From the NCBI RefSeq assembly GCF_010550695.1, contig NZ_JAAGOB010000003.1, positions 186,001-250,000 on the forward strand: 64,000 nt of DNA, written 5' to 3'. This document shows positions 32,950 to 54,074 of the stretch, piece by piece. This DNA comes from Phytoactinopolyspora alkaliphila (GTDB lineage Bacteria > Actinomycetota > Actinomycetes > Jiangellales > Jiangellaceae). Made by a program: the position numbers and the translations under genes. Position 1 is the stretch's first letter; each line of letters starts with the position of its first letter. The notes beneath the pieces are model-generated. The model saw nothing but the letters and a program-made list of their open reading frames with translations, was not told where the DNA came from and did no database searches.

Positions 32950-33114
32950 CCGGTTCAGCCCAAACGTTTACATTCCCGCCAGTACCCCTGCGTCGCGCAC
33001 TGGGCCGTCAAGGCGTATAGTCCGTGAGTACCTGTTGTCGGCTATGTCCGAAAAGGGTCGGCGAGGGGTTGAACTGTGGGGGGGCCACGGTTCGGGTCGA
33101 AGCCTGGGGGGGCC

Positions 33115-34491
33115 ATGGCAACGGTCGGCATCTCGCCGACTGGTTCGCGCTTGCGCGTGCGTCGGCACGTCAGGACGAAACAGCGGCACGATCCACGCAG
33201 CAGGCGCGCCGCGCCGCAGCGGATCGTTTCCTGGTATCAGCGGATCATCACCGCCAGCACCGCTCTGGCCAAGGTGGTCGCCGCGGGCATCCTGTGGGGT
33301 GGCGGGCTGCAGATAATCCTCGATCTGGTTACCCGATCGGGGTGGAGCGGCGCCCGATACGCGTGGTTTGCGTCAGTTTCCGCATTGGTGCTGGCGGGCA
33401 CTCTTCTCGTCCGGAGCGTGGCGCGTCATCGACTGAGGTCATTGCGCCGGCAGGGCCTCGCGGTACGAAGAACGCTCACCGTGGGACCGGGCAGGCAGAT
33501 CACGGCCGTCGTGGACCGGCTGTCCAGTGATACCGATCATCCGTTTGTCGTCGTCGGCGCGTGCGTGGAAGGCGAGAGCGAGGTCGTCGAGGACGTACCC
33601 CAGCTCAGCCGGCTGCCGCTCCTGCCGGCCGAGCCGGACGCCTTTCACGACGACGAGGTGGTACGACGGGTCTTGGTGGCCCTGGACAAAATTGGGGCCG
33701 ACACCGTGTGCATCGCGCCGGGGTCGCAGTTCACCAATGGTCGTCTGCGTGCTCTGGGCTGGGCGCTGAGCGAGCGCGGGGTCGCGCTGGTCTCAGAGCT
33801 CGGCCTGGAGGACGTCGCCACTCACCGGCTATGGGTGCGCCGCGCCGGAACGTCGACCATCCTGCACATCGGCGCCGCTCCCCTGGAGGGCGTGCGGCGC
33901 GTGGTCAAGTCCTGCCTCGACCGGGTGCTCGCCGGCGTCCTCTTGGTGGCCCTGGCGCCGATCCTGCTGATGGGGGCTATCGCGGTCAAGGTGTCCAGCA
34001 GCGGCCCCGTGATCTACCGGCAGACAAGAGTGGGCCGAGCAGGCCGTCGCTTCACCATGCTGAAGTTCCGCAGCATGTTCGTCGACGCCGATCAGCGCCG
34101 GGAGTCGTTGCTGGCGTCGGTGAACGTCGAGGGCCCGATGTTCAAGATGTACGACGATCCGCGCGTCACCCGCGTCGGCCGGATCCTGCGGAAGTACTCC
34201 CTGGACGAGTTGCCGCAGCTGGTCAACGTGGTGCGGGGCGAGATGTCGCTCGTGGGGCCGAGGCCGCCGCTGGTGGAAGAGGTCGCAACCTACGACCAGG
34301 TGGAGATGCGACGCCTGCTCGTCACCCCCGGGATCACCGGCCTGTGGCAGGTCAGCGGCAGATCCAATCTGACCTGGGACGAGACGGTGCGCCTTGACCT
34401 CAGGTACGTGGACAACTGGACGATCCGAGGCGATGCCCGTCTGCTCGGCCGCACGGCGGGAGCCGTCGTCCGCGGAACCGGCGCGTACTGA
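33115..34491 (+). CDS. polyprenyl-phosphate sugar-1-phosphate transferase (exopolysaccharide priming)
   Basis: Membrane enzyme that transfers a sugar-phosphate to the lipid carrier to start repeat-unit assembly. About 458 residues. Two N-terminal helices and a CoA-binding-like central region precede the hallmark bacterial sugar transferase domain (residues about 285-455): RVLAGVLLVALAPILLMGAIAVKV, FTMLKFRSMFVDAD, YSLDELPQLVNVVRGEMSLVGPRPP, PGITGLWQVSGRS. ATG 33115 is preferred; GTG 33076 in frame is possible. It lacks the extra N-terminal helices of full WbaP. It probably primes the polymer built by the 52.5-64 kb genes. Confidence 0.9.
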   Translation: MATVGISPTGSRLRVRRHVRTKQRHDPRSRRAAPQRIVSWYQRIITASTALAKVVAAGILWGGGLQIILDLVTRSGWSGARYAWFASVSALVLAGTLLVRSVARHRLRSLRRQGLAVRRTLTVGPGRQITAVVDRLSSDTDHPFVVVGACVEGESEVVEDVPQLSRLPLLPAEPDAFHDDEVVRRVLVALDKIGADTVCIAPGSQFTNGRLRALGWALSERGVALVSELGLEDVATHRLWVRRAGTSTILHIGAAPLEGVRRVVKSCLDRVLAGVLLVALAPILLMGAIAVKVSSSGPVIYRQTRVGRAGRRFTMLKFRSMFVDADQRRESLLASVNVEGPMFKMYDDPRVTRVGRILRKYSLDELPQLVNVVRGEMSLVGPRPPLVEEVATYDQVEMRRLLVTPGITGLWQVSGRSNLTWDETVRLDLRYVDNWTIRGDARLLGRTAGAVVRGTGAY

Positions 34492-34523
34492 GTGGCGCGC
34501 ACCGACCTGCTCCGCACAAAGCG

Positions 34524-34554
34524 AAGGGCCCCGATCACGAGGATCGGGGCCCTT
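34524..34554. terminator. bidirectional terminator hairpin
   Basis: Perfect 13-bp stem (AAGGGCCCCGATC / GATCGGGGCCCTT) with a 5-base loop between the convergent sugar transferase gene and lasso precursor gene A1. The A and T ends suit termination from both sides. Confidence 0.85.
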
Positions 34555-34566
34555 GCCGTAGGTCTG

Positions 34567-34740
34567 TCAGGAGAAGCCGCCGCCGTTGTCACCTGTGGCG
34601 GAGCATTCCCCGTGCTGGTCGATGTGGTGCGGAACGTCGGCGCTGTCCTTCGGCGGCGGACCCGAAAGGTTCGGGTTGCACCGGCTCAGTGTGTGCTCGA
34701 CGACCGACCCGATGACGTAAAGCTGTGGACGCTCGTACAT
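34567..34740 (-). CDS. lasso-type RiPP precursor A1, atypical core
   Basis: A 57-residue peptide gene starting at ATG 34740, with AGGGGGGAG eight bases upstream. Residues 1-18 are a lasso leader: Tyr2-x2-Pro5-x-Leu7 (YERPQL), Gly11 and Thr17 at position -2, matching the YxxPxL...G...T pattern bound by PqqD-type B1 proteins. A cut after Leu18 gives a 39-residue core starting SRCNPNLSG. It has no Asp/Glu at positions 7-9, so a normal isopeptide ring cannot form. Cys21 and Cys46 could form a disulfide. An alternative cut before Gly27 would give Gly1 and Asp9. It ends in Ser. It is divergent from cyclase-like gene C1. Confidence 0.8.
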   Translation of the reverse strand: MYERPQLYVIGSVVEHTLSRCNPNLSGPPPKDSADVPHHIDQHGECSATGDNGGGFS

Positions 34741-34859
34741 CGTGTCTCCCCCCTGGGGCGCATTGCCCCGATTGTCACCCCTCGGAAGCAAATGCTGCCC
34801 CCCTAGTGATGGAGAACACTATCATGGCGGTTTCAGGGTGGCTAGTTGAGGGGGCAAGA

Positions 34860-36653
34860 ATGGCGGTTGGAGCAATCGCAGGGGTGGTATCGCGTGAGAA
34901 CAGGCCTGATCCGGGCGCGGTAATCCGGATGCTCAAGGCCGTTCCGCACCGGGGTTCAGTGGTGCAGACGCTGGAGTCAGGCAACGCGATCGTTGCGGTG
35001 GTGGGCGACGGGGAGCGCAGCGTCTCGAGCCTGGGCTCGCACGGGCGCTGGGCGTGTGCTCTGCTCGGTCCGCTGGACAACGTGGCCGACCTCGCAGCCG
35101 ACCTGAGGCTTGAGGGTGAGCCCGCCGGGCAGGACGAGTCCGCCCGCGTGGTGGCGGCGGCGTTCGCCCGCTGGGGTGCTGGGGCGCCGGCCCGGCTGCG
35201 CGGTGCCTTCGCCGGGATCGTCAGCGACGGAGACCGCGCTTGGTCCTTCCGGGACCACATCGGCGGTCGGACCTTCTTCTTCCGCGACGACGGCCGCACG
35301 TGGTGGGGCGCGAGCGAGGCGAAGCAGGTCGTGGCCGGTGCTGGCCTGATCCGGCAGCCGGACCTCGACGCGATTTCCACCACGTACTTCCGGGGCGTCT
35401 CTGAGGCATCGGCGCTCAAGGGTGTCTCGCGGCTTCGGTACGGAAGCGTCCAGACCGTCGGCCCGCACGGAAGCACCGAGGACCTGCACTGGAACCCTGG
35501 CCCGGAGATGCTGGAGACCTCGAAGCTCTCGCTGGACGACGCGGTCGAGGAACTCGTCGAGGTGATGAGGCGGGCCGTCGAGCGGACGGTCTACGGCGCG
35601 GAAGCTGTGGCGCTGAGCGGGGGTATCGACTCCCCGGCCGTCGCGGCGTTCGCGGCACCTCGTCACCTGTCGCTCGGTGGTGCGCCGCTGCAGGCCTACA
35701 CCTACGTGTACCCGCGGCAGTCCAGCGTCGACGAGAGCCCGTACACCAGAGCCGTCGCCGAGCAGCTGGGCATCCCGCTGGAGGAGTTCGAGGTGTCCGC
35801 GGGCCCGCTCGACGAGCTGGACCGATGGGTGGCGCTCGCCGATGGTCCCTGGGATAGCCTTCCGATGGCGACGGCGGCGTACGGATATCGGGCCGCAGCC
35901 GGTTTCGGAGCCACTCAGGTGCTGACCGGCACACTGGCCGAGTATGTGTTCACGGTGAACTCCTTCCTGCTCGGCCATCTCGCTTCGCACGGCCGCCTGC
36001 GGGCATTGGGCGATCAGATGGCGCAGCGCAGGGCGGCGGGCATGGGACGTCGCCGGCTGGCGCGGCGGCTGGTGTGGGAGCTCACGCCGGCGCCGCTGGG
36101 GAAGCTGAAGGCCCGCGCGGTGCGCCGGAAGTCGAACTTCTTCCCAGCCTGGACCGACATGACCGTCGTCGGCGGCTACCGCTACGAGACGGCGCTGCTG
36201 AACCCGGTCCGCAAACGCTGGGCGACGCCCACCCTGCAGGCGGCTCGGGGCACCACCACTACATCGGAGGCGCAGGAGATCTGCGCCGCCGCGGAGGGAG
36301 TGACGGTGCGGCAGCCGCTGGCTGACCGCGATCTCTGGGAGTGGTTCCTGAGGCTCCCTGCCGAGGTCAAGTTCCCCGATCTCACGCCCAAGTCGATCGT
36401 GCGGAAGGCGTTGCGGGGCAGGGTGCCGGACTCGGTGCTGGACCGCCGGGACAAGACCCTGTTTGACGAACATGTCATGGACACCGTGCCGTGGGACCGG
36501 CTGGAGCACTACCTGAATGATCCGGACTATCGGATGCCCGGCATCGACTACCCGATGCTGCTCGACCGGGTGCAGCGCAAGGAGTTCCGGCCGGTGGAGC
36601 TGATCTGGGCCTACGACCTCTGTGGCGTGCACGCGTTCCTCCGCACGTTCTAA
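34860..36653 (+). CDS. asparagine synthase-like lasso cyclase C1, diverged
   Basis: A 597-residue AsnB-type protein. Residues about 1-215 are a class II glutamine-amidotransferase-like domain in which the nucleophile Cys of the usual MCGIAG start is absent (MAVGAIAGVVS). Residues about 225-590 are an ATP-pyrophosphatase domain with LSGGIDS at 252-258 and the C-terminal LPAEVKFPDLTPKSIVRKAL segment. The second conserved loop, normally GEGGDE, reads TGTLAEYVF (356-364). Loss of glutaminase chemistry fits lasso cyclases, which activate an Asp/Glu side chain as AMP ester. ATG 34860 has GAGGGGG upstream; 34824 and 34809 are alternatives. Divergent precursor A1 is its likely substrate. Confidence 0.82.
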   Translation: MAVGAIAGVVSRENRPDPGAVIRMLKAVPHRGSVVQTLESGNAIVAVVGDGERSVSSLGSHGRWACALLGPLDNVADLAADLRLEGEPAGQDESARVVAAAFARWGAGAPARLRGAFAGIVSDGDRAWSFRDHIGGRTFFFRDDGRTWWGASEAKQVVAGAGLIRQPDLDAISTTYFRGVSEASALKGVSRLRYGSVQTVGPHGSTEDLHWNPGPEMLETSKLSLDDAVEELVEVMRRAVERTVYGAEAVALSGGIDSPAVAAFAAPRHLSLGGAPLQAYTYVYPRQSSVDESPYTRAVAEQLGIPLEEFEVSAGPLDELDRWVALADGPWDSLPMATAAYGYRAAAGFGATQVLTGTLAEYVFTVNSFLLGHLASHGRLRALGDQMAQRRAAGMGRRRLARRLVWELTPAPLGKLKARAVRRKSNFFPAWTDMTVVGGYRYETALLNPVRKRWATPTLQAARGTTTTSEAQEICAAAEGVTVRQPLADRDLWEWFLRLPAEVKFPDLTPKSIVRKALRGRVPDSVLDRRDKTLFDEHVMDTVPWDRLEHYLNDPDYRMPGIDYPMLLDRVQRKEFRPVELIWAYDLCGVHAFLRTF

Positions 36654-36774
36654 CGACAGCGGCTCGTCGGTTCGATTCCGTCATGTGGACAGCACGTCCC
36701 GAATAATGGGCAGGCGTCGGACGTCGTGAGCTTTGGCCCTACCCTGGATGGCTGGCCCCGCTTCGAGGAGAACC

Positions 36775-37566
36775 GTGACTGAGACCGACGCCGCCCTGGC
36801 GACTCGCCTCGCGCACGAGGCGGGCGCCCTGCTGCTCGACGTTCGTCGCCGGGACGGTGGCCACCTCGACGCGGCGTCCCTGCGCGCCGCCGGGGACCGG
36901 TCGGCACAGGAATTCCTGGCGGCCGCTCTGGCGTCGGCACGGCCCGCCGACGCCGTGCTGAGCGAGGAAGCCGCTGATGACCTCGCCAGGCTGGAAGCGG
37001 AGCGGGTCTGGATCATCGACCCGCTCGACGGCACCAAGGAGTACGCGGAGGGCCGCTCCGACTGGGCGGTGCACGTGGCGCTGTGGGAGCGGGGTGAGCT
37101 GGCGGCCGGCGCCGTCGCTCTGCCCGGGCGTGCCGTCACACTGTCCACCGATCCCGCGCCGGAGGTGCCGTCCACGCGCCGCGGCTCAGATGAACAGCCG
37201 TGGCGCATCGCCGTCAGCCGCAGCCGGGCGCCCGCCGTCGCTGAAAACGTCGCCCGGGTGCTTCCCGCCGAGCTGGTGCCGATGGGCTCTGCCGGTTACA
37301 AGGTGGCGTCGGTGGTGCTTGGTGAGGCCGACGGCTACGTCCACGCCGGTGGCCAGTATCAATGGGATTCCGCAGCGCCGGTGGCCGTCGCCCGCGCCGC
37401 AGGCCTGCACGCGAGCCGGCTGGACGGCTCACCGTTACGCTATAACGACGCCAACCCCTACCTGCCCGACCTGCTGGTCGCGCGGCCGGAGCTCGCGGAC
37501 GCGCTCCTGGCCGCTTCTTCCGGCTCAGCAACTGATCCGGCACCCGCCGTGAGGTCCCACACATGA
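36775..37566 (+). CDS. cysQ: 3'(2'),5'-bisphosphate nucleotidase (PAP phosphatase)
   Basis: Hydrolyses 3'-phosphoadenosine-5'-phosphate, the by-product of PAPS-using reactions, and is a member of the inositol-monophosphatase superfamily. It has 263 residues from GTG 36775 (GAGGAG upstream). The metal-binding motifs are SEEAADD near residue 65 and IDPLDGTKEYAEG near 80, with QWDSAAPVAVARAAG near 205. It overlaps cysD by 4 bases, so the two act in one sulfate-activation operon. Confidence 0.9.
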   Translation: MTETDAALATRLAHEAGALLLDVRRRDGGHLDAASLRAAGDRSAQEFLAAALASARPADAVLSEEAADDLARLEAERVWIIDPLDGTKEYAEGRSDWAVHVALWERGELAAGAVALPGRAVTLSTDPAPEVPSTRRGSDEQPWRIAVSRSRAPAVAENVARVLPAELVPMGSAGYKVASVVLGEADGYVHAGGQYQWDSAAPVAVARAAGLHASRLDGSPLRYNDANPYLPDLLVARPELADALLAASSGSATDPAPAVRSHT

Positions 37567-40739: not shown

Positions 40740-41006
40740 GTGAAGCTCCGTACTGACGGCGTGACGTGGCGTGAGATCGATGGCGAGATGGTCATTCTCG
40801 ACCTGTCATCGTCCACATATTTGAGAACCAATCAGACCGGGTCGACGCTCTTGCGCCTGCTGGCCGAGGAAACATCCGTGGATGAGCTGGCCGACGGTTT
40901 GATGGCGGCCTACGGTATTCCAGCTGAACAGGCCAGCACCGACGTGGACGCGTTCCTGGAGATGTTGCGGGAAAAGAACCTGTTGGACACCGCCGGCGCC
41001 CGTTGA
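40740..41006 (+). CDS. lasso peptide RRE protein B1 (PqqD-like)
   Basis: An 88-residue PqqD-fold RiPP recognition element. VTWREIDGEMVILDLSSSTYL followed by NQTGSTLLRLLAEETSVDELADGLMAAYGI and a final helix is the usual winged-helix pattern. It binds the precursor leader and hands it to the B2 protease. The start is GTG 40740 behind GGGGGGAG. It precedes precursor gene A2 by 140 bases. As the only B1 in the window, it may serve both precursors, whose leaders share GSV-x-E-x-TL. Confidence 0.88.
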   Translation: MKLRTDGVTWREIDGEMVILDLSSSTYLRTNQTGSTLLRLLAEETSVDELADGLMAAYGIPAEQASTDVDAFLEMLREKNLLDTAGAR

Positions 41007-41088
41007 CCGAGCAACTGGCTGGGAATTCACCTCCGATGTACTCCCTTTGCCACTGAATAGGTCGATATGCTGCAAGTCGCGGACAGGA

Positions 41089-41109
41089 CGGGACACCTGA
41101 GCTGTCCCG
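41089..41109 (+). promoter_or_regulatory. hairpin in the A2 leader
   Basis: CGGGACA and TGTCCCG (7 perfect base pairs, 7-base loop), 38 bases before the A2 start, in a 140-base spacer with no other clear signal. It could end B1 transcription or act as an operator. Confidence 0.4.
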
Positions 41110-41146
41110 CGGCCGCGGAGAATCAAGGGGAGAGGGGGGCGGTCAG

Positions 41147-41278
41147 TTGAGTTATGAACCGCCGGCAATCGAAGAGATCGGGTCCGTCCGGGAGCTGACA
41201 CTGGCACAGGGCGGACGGGGCGACGGAGACCACGTCGTCTACTTCAGATACACACCGCCTGAGACCGGTCTTTCCTGA
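41147..41278 (+). CDS. lasso peptide precursor A2
   Basis: A 43-residue gene starting at TTG 41147, with no in-frame ATG/GTG. AAGGGGAGAGGGGGG precedes it. The leader (1-19) has Tyr3-x2-Pro6-x-Ile8, Gly12 and Thr18 at -2. Cleavage after Leu19 gives a 24-residue core: AQGGRGDGD (1-9), HVVYFRY (10-16), TPPETGLS (17-24). Ala1 to Asp9 would form a nine-residue isopeptide ring, as in paeninodin; Asp7 is a less usual alternative. Bulky Tyr13, Phe14, Arg15 and Tyr16 could act as plugs. The C-terminal Ser is the expected target of the linked kinase. It lies between B1 and cyclase C2. Confidence 0.88.
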   Translation: MSYEPPAIEEIGSVRELTLAQGGRGDGDHVVYFRYTPPETGLS

Positions 41279-41299
41279 CGGTCACGGGTCTGGGTCGAG

Positions 41300-41334
41300 C
41301 TCGCGCGTGACACCCCGGGGGTGCCGCGCGCGAG
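41300..41334 (+). terminator. attenuator-like hairpin between A2 and C2
   Basis: CTCGCGCG/CGCGCGAG outer stem with inner CACCCC/GGGGTG pairing, 22 bases after the A2 stop. Such a hairpin would raise the level of precursor mRNA relative to the enzyme genes. Confidence 0.6.
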
Positions 41335-41418
41335 TCTCGGCATTGGGCGGAGTGGGACCGCGAACGCCGCACCTCCCACACCGCCCACGCGTGATGTGTC
41401 GCGCTGAGAGGGGGCACG

Positions 41419-42636
41419 GTGCACAACCGTTCGCGAACGTTTGGGCGCGTCGCAGCGCTTGACGCCCATCGGCCGGCCTTCTGCCGGCCGACGGAATTCG
41501 AGATCGCGGCGGGCTGGGTGCACGGCGTCCTGCCGATGTCGCCGCCGCCAGAGACGCCCCTCTCTCCGCGAGCGGCGCTTGAGGCTGCGATCCTACCGAC
41601 GGTGGTGGCCGGCCACTGCATGGTCTCGTTCTCCGGCGGCCGTGACTCGTCGGCCGTTCTTGCGCTGGCCACGCACCTGGCACGGCGCGAAGGTGTGCCC
41701 TTGCCGGTGCCGGTGACGGAGGTCTTTCACGGCGTCGAGAGCACGGATGAGGCGCGGTGGCAGCGGCTTGTGATCGAGCATCTCGGAATCAGGGACTGGA
41801 TCCGGCTGCCGGTCGACCGTGATGGTGATCTCGTCGGTGATGCGGCGGCCGCGAGTCTCCTCCGACGAGGCCTGCTGAGCCTGCCCGCCTTGCACACCAA
41901 GGATGCGCTGTTGTCCGCGGCTCGCGGTGGCACGATGCTCACCGGAGAGGGTGGAGACGAGGTTCTGGGTGCCAGACGGATCACGCCACTCACCCTGATG
42001 CTCCGGATGCGCCGCCCGTTGTCTCGGCGCCTGGTCCGAGCCTGTGCGATGTCGGGCGCACCAGCGCCGGTCCGCCGCGCGGTGGTCCGATCGGAGCTGC
42101 GACGCACTGGAGACCGTGCGTGGATGAATCCCGAGGCGGCACGGACCCACCGGAAGCTGCTGGCAGCGGACGAGGCAGCAGAACCGCTGCCATGGCACCA
42201 GGCTGTGTGGTGGCTGAAGCACCGCAGAGCCGTTCACCTAGGCCTGCGTGATTATGCCCTGATCGCCGCGGAACACGACGTCGACCTGCGACATCCGCTG
42301 CTTGACGACGGCTTCCTCGCCGCGCTGGCACATTCCGGGGGGCGGTGGGGCTTCGCCGGGCGGACGGCCTTGATGCGTATTCTCTTCGCCGACCTTCTTC
42401 CTGACGAGCTCCTCCGAAGGTCGAGCAAGGCCAGTTTCGACCGCGCCTACATGAGTGACGCCACGCGCGAGTTCGCTCGCTCGTGGGACGGCCTCGGGGT
42501 GGATCCGACACTGGTGGACGTGGCCACGCTGCGTGCCGGCTGGCTGTCGGACCGGCCCGCCGCAGTCACCGGGCTACTGCTGCAGTCGGCCTGGTTGGCC
42601 ACGCGAACCGAGACCGTGCCGGGGAGACCGCGATGA
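41419..42636 (+). CDS. lasso cyclase C2 (asparagine synthase-related, no amidotransferase domain)
   Basis: A 405-residue ATP-dependent macrolactam synthetase. The PP-loop SFSGGRDSSAV is at residues 70-80 and the canonical second loop TGEGGDEV at 175-182, with DYALIAAEHDVDLRHPLLDDGFL and ELLRRSSKASFDRAY in the C-terminal half. It lacks the N-terminal glutaminase-like domain of about 200 residues found in most lasso cyclases, so it is either a natural short form or reduced. The start is GTG 41419 with GAGAGGGGG upstream. The frame before the start shows no similarity. Its stop overlaps the B2 start. Confidence 0.88.
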   Translation: MHNRSRTFGRVAALDAHRPAFCRPTEFEIAAGWVHGVLPMSPPPETPLSPRAALEAAILPTVVAGHCMVSFSGGRDSSAVLALATHLARREGVPLPVPVTEVFHGVESTDEARWQRLVIEHLGIRDWIRLPVDRDGDLVGDAAAASLLRRGLLSLPALHTKDALLSAARGGTMLTGEGGDEVLGARRITPLTLMLRMRRPLSRRLVRACAMSGAPAPVRRAVVRSELRRTGDRAWMNPEAARTHRKLLAADEAAEPLPWHQAVWWLKHRRAVHLGLRDYALIAAEHDVDLRHPLLDDGFLAALAHSGGRWGFAGRTALMRILFADLLPDELLRRSSKASFDRAYMSDATREFARSWDGLGVDPTLVDVATLRAGWLSDRPAAVTGLLLQSAWLATRTETVPGRPR

Positions 42637-43091
42637 AGAGGATAACGGCGCTAGCCAGAGCGGTGCCGTGGCGGGAGTGGCCGGCCGTGCTGACCGCGGC
42701 TGCGGTAGCCGTCATCGTCGAAATCGGTCTGCGCACCATGACATTGCCCCGCCTCGCGAAGCTTCTTGGAGTGCCGCTGCGCCTGGACGATGGTGTCGAC
42801 CTGATGCCGCCGGGAAGCCGAATCCATCTCCCTCCCGTCGCACGTCGCCGGCTCGCCGCCACGAGCCGGATCATGCGGCACTGGCCGCTGGGTGACACCT
42901 GTCTGCGCCGGGCTCTGGTCAGTGGTCAGCGCCTGCGAAGCCTACATCCCGTGTTGCGCGTCGGAGTGGCCAAGATCGACGGGCGCATTCAAGGTCATGC
43001 GTGGCTGGAGATCGAGGGAGTGAGCCTGGATCCCGCGGGTTCGGCGTCGCACTTGACCTTCGAGCCGATCCGCGGCGGGGAGGATTCATGA
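42633..43091 (+). CDS. lasso leader peptidase B2 (transglutaminase-like)
   Basis: A 152-residue cysteine protease that removes the lasso leader with B1. The catalytic triad can be placed at Cys90 (GDTCLRRAL), His122 (GHAWLEIEG) and Asp133 (SLDPAG), the usual B2 spacing. The N-terminal region with WPAVLTAAAVAVIVEIGLR is hydrophobic, as in other B2 proteins. The start ATG 42633 overlaps the C2 stop, and its own stop overlaps the kinase start. Confidence 0.92.
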   Translation: MKRITALARAVPWREWPAVLTAAAVAVIVEIGLRTMTLPRLAKLLGVPLRLDDGVDLMPPGSRIHLPPVARRRLAATSRIMRHWPLGDTCLRRALVSGQRLRSLHPVLRVGVAKIDGRIQGHAWLEIEGVSLDPAGSASHLTFEPIRGGEDS

Positions 43092-44044
43092 CCGGTACTC
43101 ATCTGCTGTACGGGTTGCGGGTACGTTCCGACGTTCCGCTCTATCAGCACCGTCCTGTGCCCGCCGATGGCACGCCACCGGACGTGCGGATCCGGCGAGG
43201 ACAGGATGTGCCTCGTACGGAGGAGTGTCCACCTGGCCAGGTCGTCGCTCATCTGGAAACCGATCGGCCCTACTACACCTTCTGCGTCAGCGAATCTGGC
43301 CAGCATGTCCTCCGCTTCTACCGGACCTGCGAGTTCGTGATCGACGCCGAGCTACGCGACGCCACGATGCATGTGGTCGAGGGGACGGATTCCGAGATCG
43401 CCGGCGTGCTGGCGGCCGGGGCGCTGCTCTCCTACATCCTGACCATGCGTGAACAGGTCGTCTTGCATGCCAGTGCCGTGCAGGTCGGTGATTCCGCGCT
43501 GGCGTTCGTCGGCCGCTCCGGCATGGGCAAGTCGACGATGGCGGCGTTGACCTGCGCGGCTGGGGCGTCTCTCATCACCGACGACGTACTGCGTGTGGAG
43601 TTCGGCGAGCATGGTGTGGCCTGCCGGCTCGGTGCTACCGAGTTGCGGTTGCGCAAAGCCGCGGCCGAACTGGCTGAGCGGTTCGCCGACCGCCCACCGA
43701 GCCGCGTCACCGGCGACGCTCGGGATGCGCTGCGGATGGTGGAGTCGAACGACGACGGTCTGCCGCTGGCCGCGATCGTGGTGCCGTTCCCGGACCGGGA
43801 GCGCTCCGACGTGGAGGTGGTCCGCGTGCCACCGATGGACGCGGTGATCTCGCTGCTGCGCTTCCCGCGGCTGCTCGGCTGGTCAGACGCCGCCGTCCTC
43901 GACCGCCAGTTCCGCGACATCGCCGACCTGGTGGAACGCGTGCCGGTGTATCAGGCGTTCGTGCCGTGGGGACCGCCGTTCGCCGAAGAGATCGGCGCGG
44001 ACATCGTTCGGGCCGTCGGCCTGAGTATCCCGTCGCACGCGTGA
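43088..44044 (+). CDS. HPr-kinase-like lasso peptide kinase
   Basis: A 318-residue protein of the HprK-related/PEP carboxykinase-like kinase type found in paeninodin-like lasso clusters, where it phosphorylates the C-terminal Ser of the precursor. The Walker A loop GRSGMGKST is at residues 142-150, preceded by VVLHASAV and followed by LITDDVLRVE (Walker-B-like). The C-terminal half carries LPLAAIVVPFPDRE. It is coupled to B2 by an ATGA overlap. Both candidate precursors in this locus end in Ser, which fits this activity. Confidence 0.88.
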   Translation: MTGTHLLYGLRVRSDVPLYQHRPVPADGTPPDVRIRRGQDVPRTEECPPGQVVAHLETDRPYYTFCVSESGQHVLRFYRTCEFVIDAELRDATMHVVEGTDSEIAGVLAAGALLSYILTMREQVVLHASAVQVGDSALAFVGRSGMGKSTMAALTCAAGASLITDDVLRVEFGEHGVACRLGATELRLRKAAAELAERFADRPPSRVTGDARDALRMVESNDDGLPLAAIVVPFPDRERSDVEVVRVPPMDAVISLLRFPRLLGWSDAAVLDRQFRDIADLVERVPVYQAFVPWGPPFAEEIGADIVRAVGLSIPSHA

Positions 44045-49364: not shown

Positions 49365-51290
49365 TTACCGCTCCGCGGGCTCCAGGTACGCGGCTGCCTG
49401 GAGCCGGAACAGCTCGGCGTAGTGGCCGTCCAGCGCCATCAGCTCGTCGTGCGTTCCCTGTTCGGTGACGCGGCCGTCGCCCAGCACATAGATGCGATCC
49501 GCTGTGCGCACCGTGGAGAAACGGTGCGAGATGAACAGGACGGTGCGCCCTCCGAGCAGATCGCGCAGCGACTGGAACAAAGCGTGTTCGGCCCGCGCGT
49601 CGAGGGAGGCCGACGGCTCGTCGAGGATGACGAACGGAGCGTCCCGGAAGAACGCACGAGCAAGGGCGATGCGCTGCCACTGCCCGCCGGAGAGGTCGCG
49701 GCCGCCCTTGAACATCTTGGACAGCATGGTGTCCATGCCCTGCGGCAGCGCGTCGATGGCGTGGTGGATCCCGGCCCGTTGTGCTGCTGCGGCGATCGCA
49801 GCCTCGTCGTCGAGCCGTTCCGGGCGGCCGAGACCGATGTTCTCCCGAGCGGTCAGGTGATACCGGACGAAGTCCTGGAACACCACGGCGATAGAGCGCC
49901 GGAGGTGCGGCCGGGAGTACGTGCTGATGTCCGTGCCGTCCCACGAGATGGTGCCTGACGTGGGCTCGTAGAGGGCGGCGAGAAGCTTGGCAAGAGTGGT
50001 CTTGCCGGAGCCGTTCTCGCCCACCAGGGCGACGATCTCGCCCTTCTTCATCTCCACCGAGACTTCGTGGAGGACGGGTTGCGTGCTGCCGGGGTAGGTG
50101 AACGTCAGCCCGTGCGCAGAGAGGGTGGAGAAGCTGTCCGGTGCTGGAGCTCCGGACTCGGCCTCCTCCGCTGCGGGCTGCAAGGAGACGAAATCGGAGA
50201 GGTCGTTGAGGAACAGCCCAGACTCGAAGATCTGCTGTATACCCCGGAAGAGCGTGTTGACCTGCTGGGAGAGCAGTCTGATGGCGACGATGGCGGCTCC
50301 GGCCTCGGCCAGGGTGACGCGCCCTCGACCGACGAGCCACACCAGGGCCAGCAATGTCCCGGCAAGAAACAGCGCGGACACCGAGTTGCCGAGCACGGCC
50401 AGCCGGGTCCGGTGTCGCAGGTGAACGCGCAGATCGGCGATGTAGTGGGTGTAGACGCGATCAAACCGCTCGCGCAACGCACCGGCCAAGCCGTAGGCGC
50501 GGATCTCCTTGGCCTCGTCCCGCCCGGTCTGGATCATGCCGAGATAGCCGCGCATCCGCAGCCGGGGCGTCTGCGCCACCGTGAAGTTGAACTCGCGTCG
50601 GCTCTCCTTGCGGCTGGTGATGAAGACGGGGATGCCGGCCAGCAGAAGGAGGGGCAGGAGGAGCGGCTCCAGGCTGATGATCGCAATGGACAGCCCGACG
50701 CTGCCCGCAGCCCCACCCACCATGCCGATGACACCCTGCGTGAGCTGGAACGGCCGGCTTAACGCGTTGGTCTGGATGCGTTCGAGACGGTTGTAGAAGT
50801 CCGGGGACTCGAACGCTCGCAGGCCGACGGCCGCGGCCACGTCGAGAAGCCGTTGCCATGTCTTGCGGACGACGAGTTCCGACAACAGGCGTAGCTGATT
50901 TCCCTGGATGGCAGCCGAGACCGCGACCACCGCCGTGACGCCGGCGAGCAGCATCACCGGCAGCACCACCTGGCCGGTATCGCCGCCGCCCTCGGTGACG
51001 TCGAGGATCGCGTCGAGCACCATCTTCACGATCAGCACCTGCGCGGCGAGGATCACGGCGCCAAACAGCTGCAAGGACGTCGTAATGATGAACGCGCGCC
51101 GGTCAGCCGCCCAGGACAGGCTGAAGCTCTCTGCGATCAGCGTCCGGAGCCGGCCCAGTGACTTGGGCTGGCGGCGCGCGGATGCCGTGAGGTCGATGTA
51201 ATCGTGGTTCGCGGGCTCGTCCGGCTCGGCCGGCGGTGGCCCTTTCCTCGCGTGCCGGCCGTTGTTCGGCGACGACTTGATCGCGCTCAC
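49365..51290 (-). CDS. ABC transporter, fused permease and ATPase (lasso exporter candidate)
   Basis: A 641-residue half-transporter. Six helices (residues about 60-350) precede a nucleotide-binding domain with Walker A GENGSGKTT near 425, signature LSGGQ near 530, Walker B VILDEPSASLD near 550 and H-loop FISHRFS. The N-terminal 40 residues are hydrophilic. The start overlaps the NTF gene by 4 bases. In kinase-type lasso clusters an ABC exporter (D) and a nucleotidyltransferase (N) commonly accompany A-C-B1-B2-K, so this is the probable exporter although it lies 5 kb from the kinase gene on the other strand. Confidence 0.85.
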   Translation of the reverse strand: MSAIKSSPNNGRHARKGPPPAEPDEPANHDYIDLTASARRQPKSLGRLRTLIAESFSLSWAADRRAFIITTSLQLFGAVILAAQVLIVKMVLDAILDVTEGGGDTGQVVLPVMLLAGVTAVVAVSAAIQGNQLRLLSELVVRKTWQRLLDVAAAVGLRAFESPDFYNRLERIQTNALSRPFQLTQGVIGMVGGAAGSVGLSIAIISLEPLLLPLLLLAGIPVFITSRKESRREFNFTVAQTPRLRMRGYLGMIQTGRDEAKEIRAYGLAGALRERFDRVYTHYIADLRVHLRHRTRLAVLGNSVSALFLAGTLLALVWLVGRGRVTLAEAGAAIVAIRLLSQQVNTLFRGIQQIFESGLFLNDLSDFVSLQPAAEEAESGAPAPDSFSTLSAHGLTFTYPGSTQPVLHEVSVEMKKGEIVALVGENGSGKTTLAKLLAALYEPTSGTISWDGTDISTYSRPHLRRSIAVVFQDFVRYHLTARENIGLGRPERLDDEAAIAAAAQRAGIHHAIDALPQGMDTMLSKMFKGGRDLSGGQWQRIALARAFFRDAPFVILDEPSASLDARAEHALFQSLRDLLGGRTVLFISHRFSTVRTADRIYVLGDGRVTEQGTHDELMALDGHYAELFRLQAAAYLEPAER

Positions 51291-52456
51291 GGTGACACCC
51301 CTGCGTGCGTCTCTACTGCCCGCAGGTACGCCTCCAGGGCTTCGTCGTCCGCCGGCTCGCGTCCAGCGGGCTGAGTGCGACGCTGGCCCTTGCCCAGCCG
51401 TTCCGCGACCCCGCGCATGCCTTTGGCGCCCACAGCACTGAGGGTTCCGCCGCTGCCGGGCCGAGCCGAACGGGCCATGAGCCGGGCCACGGACGTACTG
51501 CTGCGCAAGGCGGGCACGGGCGCCAGCCGGTCGACGGCGTTGGTGACCACCCGCAGTCCGGCAGAGACACCAAGCTCCCGGTCCAGCCGATCGGGGAGCG
51601 GCGTGTTGAGCAATGCCGATGCCCTCGCCAGCACGATCGCGACGGCGGTTTCCGCGCCCCAGTCATGTGCTCGCGTCACGACGGCGTCCCAGTCCGTGGT
51701 CTTCCGGGCCAGCTGGTCGGCGTCGAGAATGAGAAGCATGCGGTGAGCACCGGTGAGAGCGGCGTGCAGGCAGACGTGCACGAGCGCGTCCGTGTGGTTC
51801 AATGCCCAGGTCGACGACAGTCCAAGGTCGGTCGATATTCGCCGGTCCAGGATCTCGTCGGTGGGCACCGAGAACTGGCGGCGAGTGGACGCCATGTTGA
51901 TCATGGACCAGTGCAGGTCGATCAGGATGCCGGACGGACTGACCCAGTGCATCTCACCCGGCGTCGCGGCGTTGCGCAGCATGTCGCGGTAGTCCGCGAC
52001 GGTCCATCCCGCCTCGGCGAGCCGGGTGGTGGCGGCGCGGAGTTCGCGCGGCGAGACCAGCACGTCGATGTCGTTGTAGAGTCGCAGCCCCGGAGCGGGA
52101 TGTGCGTGCTCGGAGAGGATCGGTCCTTTGAACGTCGCCCAGCGAAGGCCGTCGAGGAGCCGGTCGATGGCGTCGAGTGTGATCGACGCGCTGAGATGGG
52201 TGGCCATCGCCCGGTCTCGATCCGGCTTGAGCTCGGCGGCGAGCTCTGGTTCGGCCTCCCTGAGCAGCACATGGGCTAATGGGCTGACGCGGTGATGACG
52301 GGCTGTCTCGACGAACAACCGTCGAGTTGCGTCATGGGCTGGGAGGTCAGGCGTCGTGTTCCGGCACACGTCGACGATCGCGGCCGGTACGGCGCGACGC
52401 GGTCGTGTGGCCCGCCGAGTGCCGCTGCTGGCGGAACTCCCCCGGGATTTCGTCAT
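51287..52456 (-). CDS. nucleotidyltransferase-family (NTF/PF14907-like) protein
   Basis: A 389-residue protein with the uncharacterised nucleotidyltransferase pattern: Lys110-Gly111 (WATFKGPIL), then LRLYNDIDVLVSPREL with the Asp-x-Asp pair at 129/131, and DLHWSMIN near residue 180. Such proteins accompany lasso kinases in paeninodin-like clusters, where their exact role is unknown; modification of the phosphorylated tail is one idea. The start is ATG 52456 behind GGGGGG; the longer frame to 52534 lacks similarity. The C-terminal 60 residues are basic and low-complexity. Confidence 0.82.
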   Translation of the reverse strand: MTKSRGSSASSGTRRATRPRRAVPAAIVDVCRNTTPDLPAHDATRRLFVETARHHRVSPLAHVLLREAEPELAAELKPDRDRAMATHLSASITLDAIDRLLDGLRWATFKGPILSEHAHPAPGLRLYNDIDVLVSPRELRAATTRLAEAGWTVADYRDMLRNAATPGEMHWVSPSGILIDLHWSMINMASTRRQFSVPTDEILDRRISTDLGLSSTWALNHTDALVHVCLHAALTGAHRMLLILDADQLARKTTDWDAVVTRAHDWGAETAVAIVLARASALLNTPLPDRLDRELGVSAGLRVVTNAVDRLAPVPALRSSTSVARLMARSARPGSGGTLSAVGAKGMRGVAERLGKGQRRTQPAGREPADDEALEAYLRAVETHAGVSP

Positions 52457-52550
52457 CTGACCCCCCAGATGTTCACGGCCTAAGCCCCCAATCAGCGGCC
52501 GAATGCCCCATCGTAGACCTAATTTCCAGAACAAGGACAGTTGGCTTGCT

Positions 52551-54074
52551 TCAGATCCTCCGTGTCGGGCCCTTCCAATTCGCCATCAACGGCGTGGCGA
52601 CGAAGCGGTCGTCGGGCCCTGCAACCTGCAATGGGCGGCGTCCGGCTCCACCGCCGTCCAGGCGCCACAGCGCTCCCATGGCGCCGATGGCAATGAACAG
52701 CACACCCATGAAGGTACCGAAGTAGAACGAGTCAAACGTGCCGCTGGCCAGTAAAGCTACTGGTGGCACGGTCGCCAGAGCCTGCGCGAGGTGGCGGGCT
52801 TGTTGATCCACGCCACGAAGGCGAATGCTTCGCGCGACGAAGTACGGGACGATGAAAAAGATCGTGACGCCAATGACTCCAATTACTCCGCCCTCGATTA
52901 GTGTCACATACAGCTGATTGTCCAGCAGCGTGTATCTCTCAATGACGTAACTCCCTGCGCCTCGGCCGAGCAGTGGTCGTTCCTCCCACAGGTCCATGAC
53001 ATACGCACGTCGCGCGATGCGATCTTGGACGCTGGGATCATTGTCAACGTTGGTGAAGAGCGCTCGGATCGTACCCAGAACGCCTGGCTGCACGGCGTGG
53101 AAAGCGACTACCGCAACGCCGCCGATGATCGCAGCGTTGTATCGCTGCCGCCATGGCCAGATCATGGCCATAAGGACGAGGGCAAGGGCAATCGCGAGAG
53201 TCGCGGATCTGGAAATGGAGAACGGGATGCCGACGGCGATGAGGCCGGACGCGGCCCATCGCCAGATACGCTGGCGGCGCGTGGTGGCGAAGAATGCGTA
53301 ATGCAGAGCGATCGGGAGCACCATCGCCAGGACGACACCGAATTCAATGTAATGACTTGCGGTGGACGCCACACGTGCGAATCCAGGGCCGCCTCGCTCC
53401 CCGATGCCGATGAGATCCGCGTTTGGTCGCAAACCTGGGATACGGATGTACTCAACGACGTTGATGATCCCGGTGAACTGCAGAGCACCTATGAGGCCCA
53501 TCAAACCGGCGAGCCCTACCAGAATCATCAGGAGTCGGTCTAGCTGTCGCCGACTAGAGATGCCGTCCGCCGTCGCCAGGGCTATTCCGGCCATCGCGAA
53601 GGTGAAGATCAGCCAGCGATTCGCGCTGCTGGACTCGACGTGGGGAAGTCCGCGGTCGAAGCCGACCGCATACCCGAAGAGCTGCAGGGCGATGAACCAA
53701 CCTACGATCCACCGCACCGGCTGGACACCACTCGGCAGGCCGCGACTTGTCATGAACGCGAGTCCCCAGAGGAACAGCAACATGAGGCCAACGGCAACCG
53801 ACGGGCGGCCTACCGCCCCCATTCCGCCAATTACCAAGCGTGCGGGAATGAGGAACTGCAGCAGCAAATAGGCGATGAGTAAGCCCGCAGCGGAGAATTG
53901 CCATCTTCTGATTAGGAGAGGCTGCTGCGCCATCTCATCGGCGACCGTGGGCCAGCGAGGCACCTTGAGTATGGCAGGCGTCCACCGTGAGTATCGGCCC
54001 TCACCGACGCGGGGGCTCATATAGCGTCCCCGAATGCTGGCACCACTCGATGGGCCGGGGCGCAGCAGAGTCAT
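52551..54074 (-). CDS. O-antigen ligase/polymerase-like protein (Wzy type)
   Basis: A 507-residue membrane protein with about 11-12 helices and a long periplasmic-type loop carrying IARRAYVMDLWEERPLLGRGAGSY, the characteristic O-antigen_lig segment. It probably polymerises lipid-linked repeat units outside the membrane. The first 45 residues are hydrophilic; ATG 54074 overlaps the stop of the chain-length gene, which supports this start. Confidence 0.85.
   Translation of the reverse strand: MTLLRPGPSSGASIRGRYMSPRVGEGRYSRWTPAILKVPRWPTVADEMAQQPLLIRRWQFSAAGLLIAYLLLQFLIPARLVIGGMGAVGRPSVAVGLMLLFLWGLAFMTSRGLPSGVQPVRWIVGWFIALQLFGYAVGFDRGLPHVESSSANRWLIFTFAMAGIALATADGISSRRQLDRLLMILVGLAGLMGLIGALQFTGIINVVEYIRIPGLRPNADLIGIGERGGPGFARVASTASHYIEFGVVLAMVLPIALHYAFFATTRRQRIWRWAASGLIAVGIPFSISRSATLAIALALVLMAMIWPWRQRYNAAIIGGVAVVAFHAVQPGVLGTIRALFTNVDNDPSVQDRIARRAYVMDLWEERPLLGRGAGSYVIERYTLLDNQLYVTLIEGGVIGVIGVTIFFIVPYFVARSIRLRGVDQQARHLAQALATVPPVALLASGTFDSFYFGTFMGVLFIAIGAMGALWRLDGGGAGRRPLQVAGPDDRFVATPLMANWKGPTRRI

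Follow-up and report, generated by a model that had tools for sequence, protein, structure and literature searches.

In genome mining, a ring of 7–9 residues serves as the rule by which lasso peptides are recognised. Known lasso rings are described as having 7–9 residues and core peptides as having 13–33 (PMC13352647). Thr at the penultimate position of the leader is a known recognition element (PMC10368454). In systems of the paeninodin type, the C-terminal Ser of the precursor is the residue that PadeK-type kinases phosphorylate, and it is conserved where the kinase is present (PMC9266682); the BsfK kinase is described as acting on Ser3 instead (PMC10368454). Metanodin is presented as having a changed first residue with the ring rule unchanged (PMC12670498). 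In the titles and abstract starts returned by searches of open-licence papers, no lasso-type precursor without a ring acid was reported, and nothing joined Phytoactinopolyspora and lasso.

The window, that is, the whole stretch of 64,000 nucleotides of Phytoactinopolyspora alkaliphila that was analysed, carries a complete canonical lasso cluster and, 6–9 kb from it, a precursor gene and a cyclase gene, A1 and C1, that depart from this picture (Table 1). The translation of A1 is MYERPQLYVIGSVVEHTL/SRCNPNLSGPPPKDSADVPHHIDQHGECSATGDNGGGFS, where the slash marks the cut expected after Thr-x. An earlier note had read it as a lasso-type leader with YxxPxL, Gly11 and Thr17, and the translation bears this out (Y2, P5, G11, T17); YxxPx[L/V/I..] with Thr at position -2 is present in A1 as in all five members of its family. 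The description of the core holds equally: 39 residues, the first acid at position 14 (acids stand at 14, 17, 23, 27 and 33), Cys3 and Cys28, a PPP stretch, several His (three) and a GGGFS end. Neither Asp nor Glu is found at core position 7, 8 or 9. The central claim of the note, that from the expected cut such a core is unable to form a ring of 7–9 residues, stands for A1 and holds for four of the five family members. Since A1 has the leader of a lasso precursor and lacks its ring acid, the product is not called a lasso peptide here; A1 is better described as a RiPP precursor of lasso type whose cyclase belongs to a separate clade. As far as leader removal, its pathway would work like a lasso pathway.

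Table 1. Positions, in the window, of the A1–C1 genes, their flanks and the resident lasso cluster.
Feature	Position	Strand	Remarks
Sugar transferase (EPS type)	33076..34491	+	left flank of insertion
Inverted repeat directly 3' of A1	34524..34554		terminator-like, no T run; by eye, absent from repeat scan
A1, precursor, 57 aa	34567..34740	-	leader 1–18, core 19–57
Divergent A1–C1 intergenic region, 119 bp	34741..34859		124 bp in ortholog
C1, asparagine-synthetase-type cyclase, 597 aa	34860..36653	+	Asn_synthase match; back to back with A1
cysQ-like gene, first of cysQ-cysD-cysN	36733..37566	+	right flank, not part of system
B1, PqqD-type recognition element	40740..41006	+	start codon inferred; proposed in-trans action on A1
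A2, canonical lasso precursor, TTG start	41147..41278	+	core AQGGRGDGD..., Asp9, LS end
C2, cyclase of A2, 405 aa	41419..42636	+	without glutaminase-like domain
B2, leader peptidase (Transglut_core3)	42633..43091	+	only B2 seen in genome
K, HprK-like kinase	43088..44044	+	His, Lys, Asp, Asp in HASAV/GKST/TDD; weak Pfam match, below cut-off
Open frame holding ABC transporter	49368..51662	-	by eye; gene start not fixed
Nucleotidyltransferase-like frame	51287..52456	-	resembles NTP_transf_5 proteins of related lasso clusters; start inferred

A scan of 84,980 species returned a sole close relative of A1, in Phytoactinopolyspora halotolerans (G018; 85% over residues 1–52). Start, stop and frame are kept between the two, with one in-frame codon indel, and 15 of the 25 substitutions fall at third codon positions. 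Overall, dN is 0.091 and dS 0.48 (dN/dS ~0.19); the values are 0.18/0.69 for the leader and 0.059/0.39 for the core, which is thus the more constrained part of the gene. Because the ortholog keeps the frame, with a third-position bias and a low dN/dS, A1 can be taken as a real gene and no chance frame. When A1 was left out of the leader profile, it still came second of 1232 window segments, behind A2, though only with E 0.42. With a profile from the three distant family members, A1 comes first of 1232 (E 0.02) and the P. halotolerans ortholog first of 365 (E 0.03). Homology is therefore argued from rank, the adjoining cyclase and the ortholog together, not from the E-value alone. No NCBIfam or Pfam family matched A1 up to E 0.1; plasmids gave a single match (E 0.3) and viral contigs none. 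A consensus scan of the A1–C1 intergenic region found no sigma-70-type site, and Rfam had no match in 34400–34900. By eye, the ortholog is also trailed by a similar inverted repeat.

As is usual for a lasso precursor, A1 adjoins the gene of an ATP-dependent asparagine-synthetase-type cyclase (Pfam Asn_synthase, 3.4e-31). C1 is 85% identical to its P. halotolerans ortholog (dN 0.10, dS 0.89), and the substitution patterns show both A1 and C1 as conserved and under purifying selection. C1 begins MAVGAIAG and thus lacks the glutamine-splitting N-terminal Cys of glutamine-dependent asparagine synthases; its relatives, which begin MAGLAA, MGSVGG and MGSLLV, have no such catalytic Cys either. The PP-loop SGGIDSP, K511 and RRDK are retained, and LTGTLAE replaces TGxGGDE. 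A missing glutaminase Cys together with PP-loop, Lys and RRDK is the make-up of an enzyme that forms amides with ATP and without glutamine. The GGDE replacement, considered as a strong sign, was toned down: it puts Glu in place of the metal-binding Asp, and Glu stands there in one ordinary cyclase (L109) also. C1 scores 108.7 bits with NF033535 (lasso isopeptide cyclase, curated cut-off 525) and 54.1 bits with NF033561 (albusnodin/ikarugamycin-type cyclases, curated cut-off 300), below the cut-off each time. An AlphaFold2 model of C1 made from two sequences has a pLDDT of 32.6.

Relatives of C1 are few. Within the family of the host (22 genomes, E<=0.001), C1 occurs in 2/22, the next best match having 26% identity (1.9e-18). 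At E<=1e-20, relatives were found in 2/296 genomes of the class and 0/246 of genus g24, the best-ranked candidates being scored in both searches, and in 0/35 of family f18; plasmid matches reached 23–26% only. A draw of 396 genomes from the phylum gave matches in four besides the window: G819 (7.5e-133; 42% identity to C1), G677 (1.1e-120; 39%), G780 (4.2e-99 and 2.4e-31, on two contigs; 41% over part) and, weakly, G647 (4e-25), which falls outside the C1 clade. The other three lie outside the class of the window genome. In a first cyclase tree, the two Phytoactinopolyspora C1 sequences formed a lone branch, 1.98 in length, which did not fix their placement. With the sequences of the window, P. 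halotolerans, G819 and G677 as members, they form one clade (100/100), apart from C2, albusnodin-like cyclases and asnB; the placement of this clade among cyclases is weak even with four members (79/75). The motifs SGGIDSP and LTGxxAE are common to all five C1-type sequences. The idea that C1 is a copy of C2 was rejected, the trees placing the two far apart.

An A1-like precursor was found in 5/5 genomes with a C1-clade cyclase. It is the gene immediately upstream of C1 in G819 (MRYERPAIVDLGSIADHTF/DTPPVGSPGGGDNKGFVNCRIEETNCELSHPGS) and in G677 (VPVAVYEKPTVIDYGSIADHTF/DTPGVGDKGTCGYDPMFGEPSCPSD; GTG start, L190:5439-5582, minus strand). In G780 (...MVYQAPAITDFGSIARHTF/TNTGEVPGVGPQGKDPHGCATTDKFGEPSCGDHGLS), ABC and B1 genes lie between precursor and C1; this locus was read from two contigs, taken as one because each holds part of C1. 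The clusters of all three contain B1, B2 and kinase frames by profile, and those of G819 and G780 nucleotidyltransferase frames. The B1 profile included one wrong-frame row (L146), and its matches agree with Pfam PqqD where both were made. ABC genes were examined in G819 and G780, the G780 permease by eye.

The five precursors compared are thus A1, its ortholog and those of G819, G677 and G780; since two are near copies, counts over them represent four lineages. All five have Thr at position -2, two core Cys, an Asp at core 12–15 (14, 14, 12, 14, 15), an acid 1–3 residues ahead of the second Cys and a Lys at most two residues from an Asp. C-terminal Ser is found in 4/5, and an acid at core 7–9 in 1/5 only (Asp7 of G677, with which a normal 7-residue ring is therefore possible there). 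The first core residue varies (S, S, D, D, T), Asp in two members or Thr in one being unusual for lasso cores, and the invariant core columns of the alignment are Pro23, Gly27 and Glu45 (A1 numbering). The earlier note had proposed to set Gly27/Asp35 against Ser19/Asp32 in such an alignment, which neither proves nor refutes either pairing. Gly27 is invariant, and counting from it an acid falls at 7–9 in four of five, G780 being the exception; Ser19 is variable, yet an Asp lies at 12–15 from residue 1 in all five. Homologues without a conserved core acid or Cys, which the note had named as grounds for giving up its reading, did not turn up, as both Cys and the Glu45 column (core 27) are kept throughout.

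How unusual the missing ring acid is can be judged from other precursors. An acid at core 7–9 is absent in 4/5 family members as compared with 0/36 hand-sorted comparison precursors. A search for leader-family precursors in 393 genomes of the class gave 29 matches in 17 genomes; rows of G256 (a GlmU frame) and G036 were left out. Besides A1, 21 distinct canonical precursors remain, with an acid at 7–9 in 21/21 (Asp9 in 20) and C-terminal Ser in 21/21. The other 15, all with an acid at 7–9 (15/15), include long Cys-bearing cores from Priestia and Paenibacillus plasmids. They were picked by hand from 42 regex rows, of which 23 were dropped (wrong frame or unlike leader), two repeat counted precursors (L055, L057) and two were already among the 21 (L139, L146); such hand sorting can favour canonical cores. 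By lineage (3/4 vs 0/36), the Fisher p of 0.0004 is a guide only, because the comparison set was hand-sorted and because the precursor of G647 lies outside the 36. The latter (L193:7501-7704, minus strand; core QGQGGPPGGFNGVGNPPVQCPPPGSSKLVSGPDFCNLMSPPDGAIS) has its first acid at 33; with it counted, an acid stands at 7–9 in 36/37. Like A1, it has a lasso leader, no acid at 7–9, two Cys and a Ser end. Its cluster is a full one (B2 and kinase, along with ABC-like and nucleotidyltransferase-like genes); the difference lies in its cyclase (DGLDGDAVV), which is not in the C1 clade. Since it also lacks the ring acid, the rule seems to fail beyond the C1 family too.

The gene order around A1–C1 points to an insertion. 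In the window, 2.2 kb with A1–C1 lie between the sugar transferase and cysQ. These flanking genes occur in the same order in 4/4 other congeners searched, with a gap of about 0.2–0.3 kb in G017 and G018 and a DeoR-type regulator frame between them in G019 and G020. In G018, that is, P. halotolerans, A1–C1 is found elsewhere, between helicase-like and MFS-like genes (by eye), 58 kb from B2. Gene order shows A1–C1 as a two-gene cassette, inserted at different places in the two genomes. The cysQDN sulfate genes were rejected as part of the system because they stand beside the sugar transferase in four congeners without A1–C1 there. The junction itself (34491–36733; L198–L201) varies by species, holding a short gap, a DeoR-type regulator or A1–C1.

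Neither B1 nor B2 adjoins A1–C1; in the window they lie 6 and 8 kb away, with A2, in the resident cluster (A2, B1, C2, B2 and kinase; 40740–44044). The ABC transporter and the nucleotidyltransferase-like frame (49368–52585) are probably the distal part of this cluster. The earlier note had grouped A1 with C1, B1 and B2; given its own cyclase lineage and its separate insertion, A1–C1 is instead a satellite that lies next to a canonical lasso cluster, itself complete. Both A1-bearing genomes, that of the window and P. halotolerans, carry the resident A2-B1-C2-B2-K cluster. C2 and A2-type precursors are present in genomes without A1 or C1. In the family, B2 occurs in 12/22 genomes, one each; no second B2 was found in G000 or G018 (one each at E<=0.001), and no other Transglut_core3 match in G000 at E<=1e-10. 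G000, G018 and G017, the last free of A1, have a second PqqD-type gene, a distant one (35%), so an alternative B1 is conceivable. Most likely, A1–C1 would draw on the resident B1 and B2, and perhaps on the resident kinase. B1 and B2 would then act on A1 in trans, against which stands the 58 kb between the cassette and B2 in G018.

From these data, the following pathway can be proposed. A1–C1 would be a lasso-type cassette made of a precursor and its own cyclase. The resident B1 would bind the YxxP leader of A1, and the resident B2 would cleave after Thr17-Leu18. C1 would then activate a core carboxylate with ATP and join it to the freed N-terminal amine. Closure would most likely occur at Asp14, a candidate because an Asp is found at core 12–15 in all five members. 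Cys3 and Cys28 would be left for a ring-to-tail disulfide, and the resident kinase may act on A1, for instance by phosphorylating the C-terminal Ser. As there is no acid at core 7–9, the ring would probably be larger than any known lasso ring. A product of this kind, cut by B1/B2 and closed by C1 to a macrolactam of more than nine residues on Ser19, with Asp14 as the best candidate, is the reading that we favour, with confidence just short of even. Asp7 of G677, the first core residues unusual for lasso peptides and the Glu that C1 has for the metal-binding Asp speak against it. Moreover, a family of five with two near copies is too small to name the bond: the acid before the second Cys and the Lys beside an Asp are also kept, so other bonds fit.

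One of these supposes that the cut falls before Gly27 (core Gly9), SRCNPNLS being leader, and that C1 closes an ordinary nine-residue ring between Gly27 and Asp35. Gly27 is among the invariant columns, rings usually begin with Gly (about 14/15 of the comparison set, or all but two), and counted from Gly27 an acid stands at 9 in A1, 9 in the ortholog, 7 in G819 and 9 in G677. However, the only near acid of G780 is at 6, and to meet an acid within three set positions of an arbitrary point is nothing unusual. Moreover, the customary cut site Thr-x is kept at -2 in 5/5, B2 genes occur in the family clusters, and the residues at -2 before Gly27 (Leu, Leu, Pro, Gly, Gly) are unlike Thr. This cut is considered unlikely. 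Slightly further down the scale of likelihood, C1 might form an amide that does not involve the N-terminus, either between side chains (e.g. Lys13 with Glu27 or with Asp) or by closure on the Glu that adjoins the second Cys. The kept Lys–Asp proximity, the acid ahead of the second Cys with its invariant Glu45 column, and the altered active-site motifs of a deep separate cyclase clade would agree with it. Nevertheless, we know of no asparagine-synthetase-type enzyme that makes a side-chain bond in a RiPP, and B1 and B2 in the clusters indicate a freed N-terminus; we hold such a bond to be rather improbable.

It can also be asked whether C1 closes any ring. The product could be linear, perhaps phosphorylated and disulfide-bonded, if C1 had lost ring closure or had another role. 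LPP precursors of Bacillota are described as sharing with A1 the YxxP leader, a kinase and a lasso cluster neighbourhood (PMC13381572), and the Glu for metal Asp in C1 and the missing ring acid of A1 would be in line with such a product. Against it, C1 is retained with an A1-like precursor in 5/5 genomes under purifying selection and keeps the catalytic Lys and the PP-loop, and the Glu substitution is shared with the ordinary cyclase L109. A linear product thus seems distinctly improbable. LPP leaders are reported to be cut by the signal-peptidase-like LppS (PMC13381572), whereas an asparagine-synthetase-type enzyme is dedicated to A1 and the clusters of its relatives include B2. That C1 and C2 are interchangeable, with A1 as an unusual third precursor in the resident cluster, is very improbable: the leader and Ser-terminal tail of A1 do resemble A2, but C2 and A2-type precursors occur without A1 or C1, and C1 pairs with A1-like precursors in all five genomes and is far from C2 in the tree.

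Returning to the macrolactam larger than nine residues, its family can be placed among described systems. With paeninodin-type lasso peptides it shares the YxxP leader, Thr at -2 and an asparagine-synthetase-type cyclase, as well as B1, B2 and an HprK-like kinase in the family clusters and the C-terminal Ser in 4/5. It differs by the lack of an acid at core 7–9 in 4/5, by the separate cyclase clade, by the 39-residue A1 core and, in Phytoactinopolyspora, by an A1–C1 pair without its own B1, B2 and kinase; A1 ends in Ser, the kinase being in the resident cluster only. The resident A2 cluster of Jiangellaceae has a similar leader and a Gly-rich Ser-terminal tail; unlike A1–C1, it has Asp9 in every A2-type Jiangellaceae precursor read and a short C2 without N-terminal domain, which is no close relative of C1. 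Lasso peptides of class III (BI-32169 type) resemble A1 by two Cys and, if the ring is closed at Asp14, by a possible ring-to-tail disulfide, although known rings have 7–9 residues and the disulfide of A1 is predicted. Tentatively, and with a little less confidence than for the A1 product, the C1 clade and its precursors can be seen as an unrecognised lasso-type branch in Actinomycetota. Its disulfide-braced macrocycle would be off the rule (a ring of 12–15 residues, or a non-N-terminal bond), and in Phytoactinopolyspora it would be reduced to a mobile precursor–cyclase pair that uses the leader-removal enzymes of another cluster. If true, a conserved rule-breaking cyclase–precursor family would extend the range of rings open to the asparagine-synthetase fold and reveal precursors that mining tools discard. 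The cassette would be a test case for a precursor–cyclase pair that spreads by plugging into resident leader-removal enzymes.

Some side observations concern the surrounding lasso genes. Jiangellaceae relatives of the resident cluster often have two tandem precursors; here one was found. C2 and these relatives have no glutaminase-like domain and lack the Lys of the KxxLR seen in other cyclases. The second PqqD-type gene (G000:C23:261905-262144, outside the window; L182, L183) adjoins an HprK-like gene and has sugar-nucleotide genes around it; a PqqD-type and HprK-like pair occurs in G018 also, and a similar PqqD-type gene in G017. Finally, a canonical relative in G053 (L139:3163, minus strand), whose cluster includes B1, B2 and a kinase, combines Glu7 and two Cys with a GFS end resembling that of A1.
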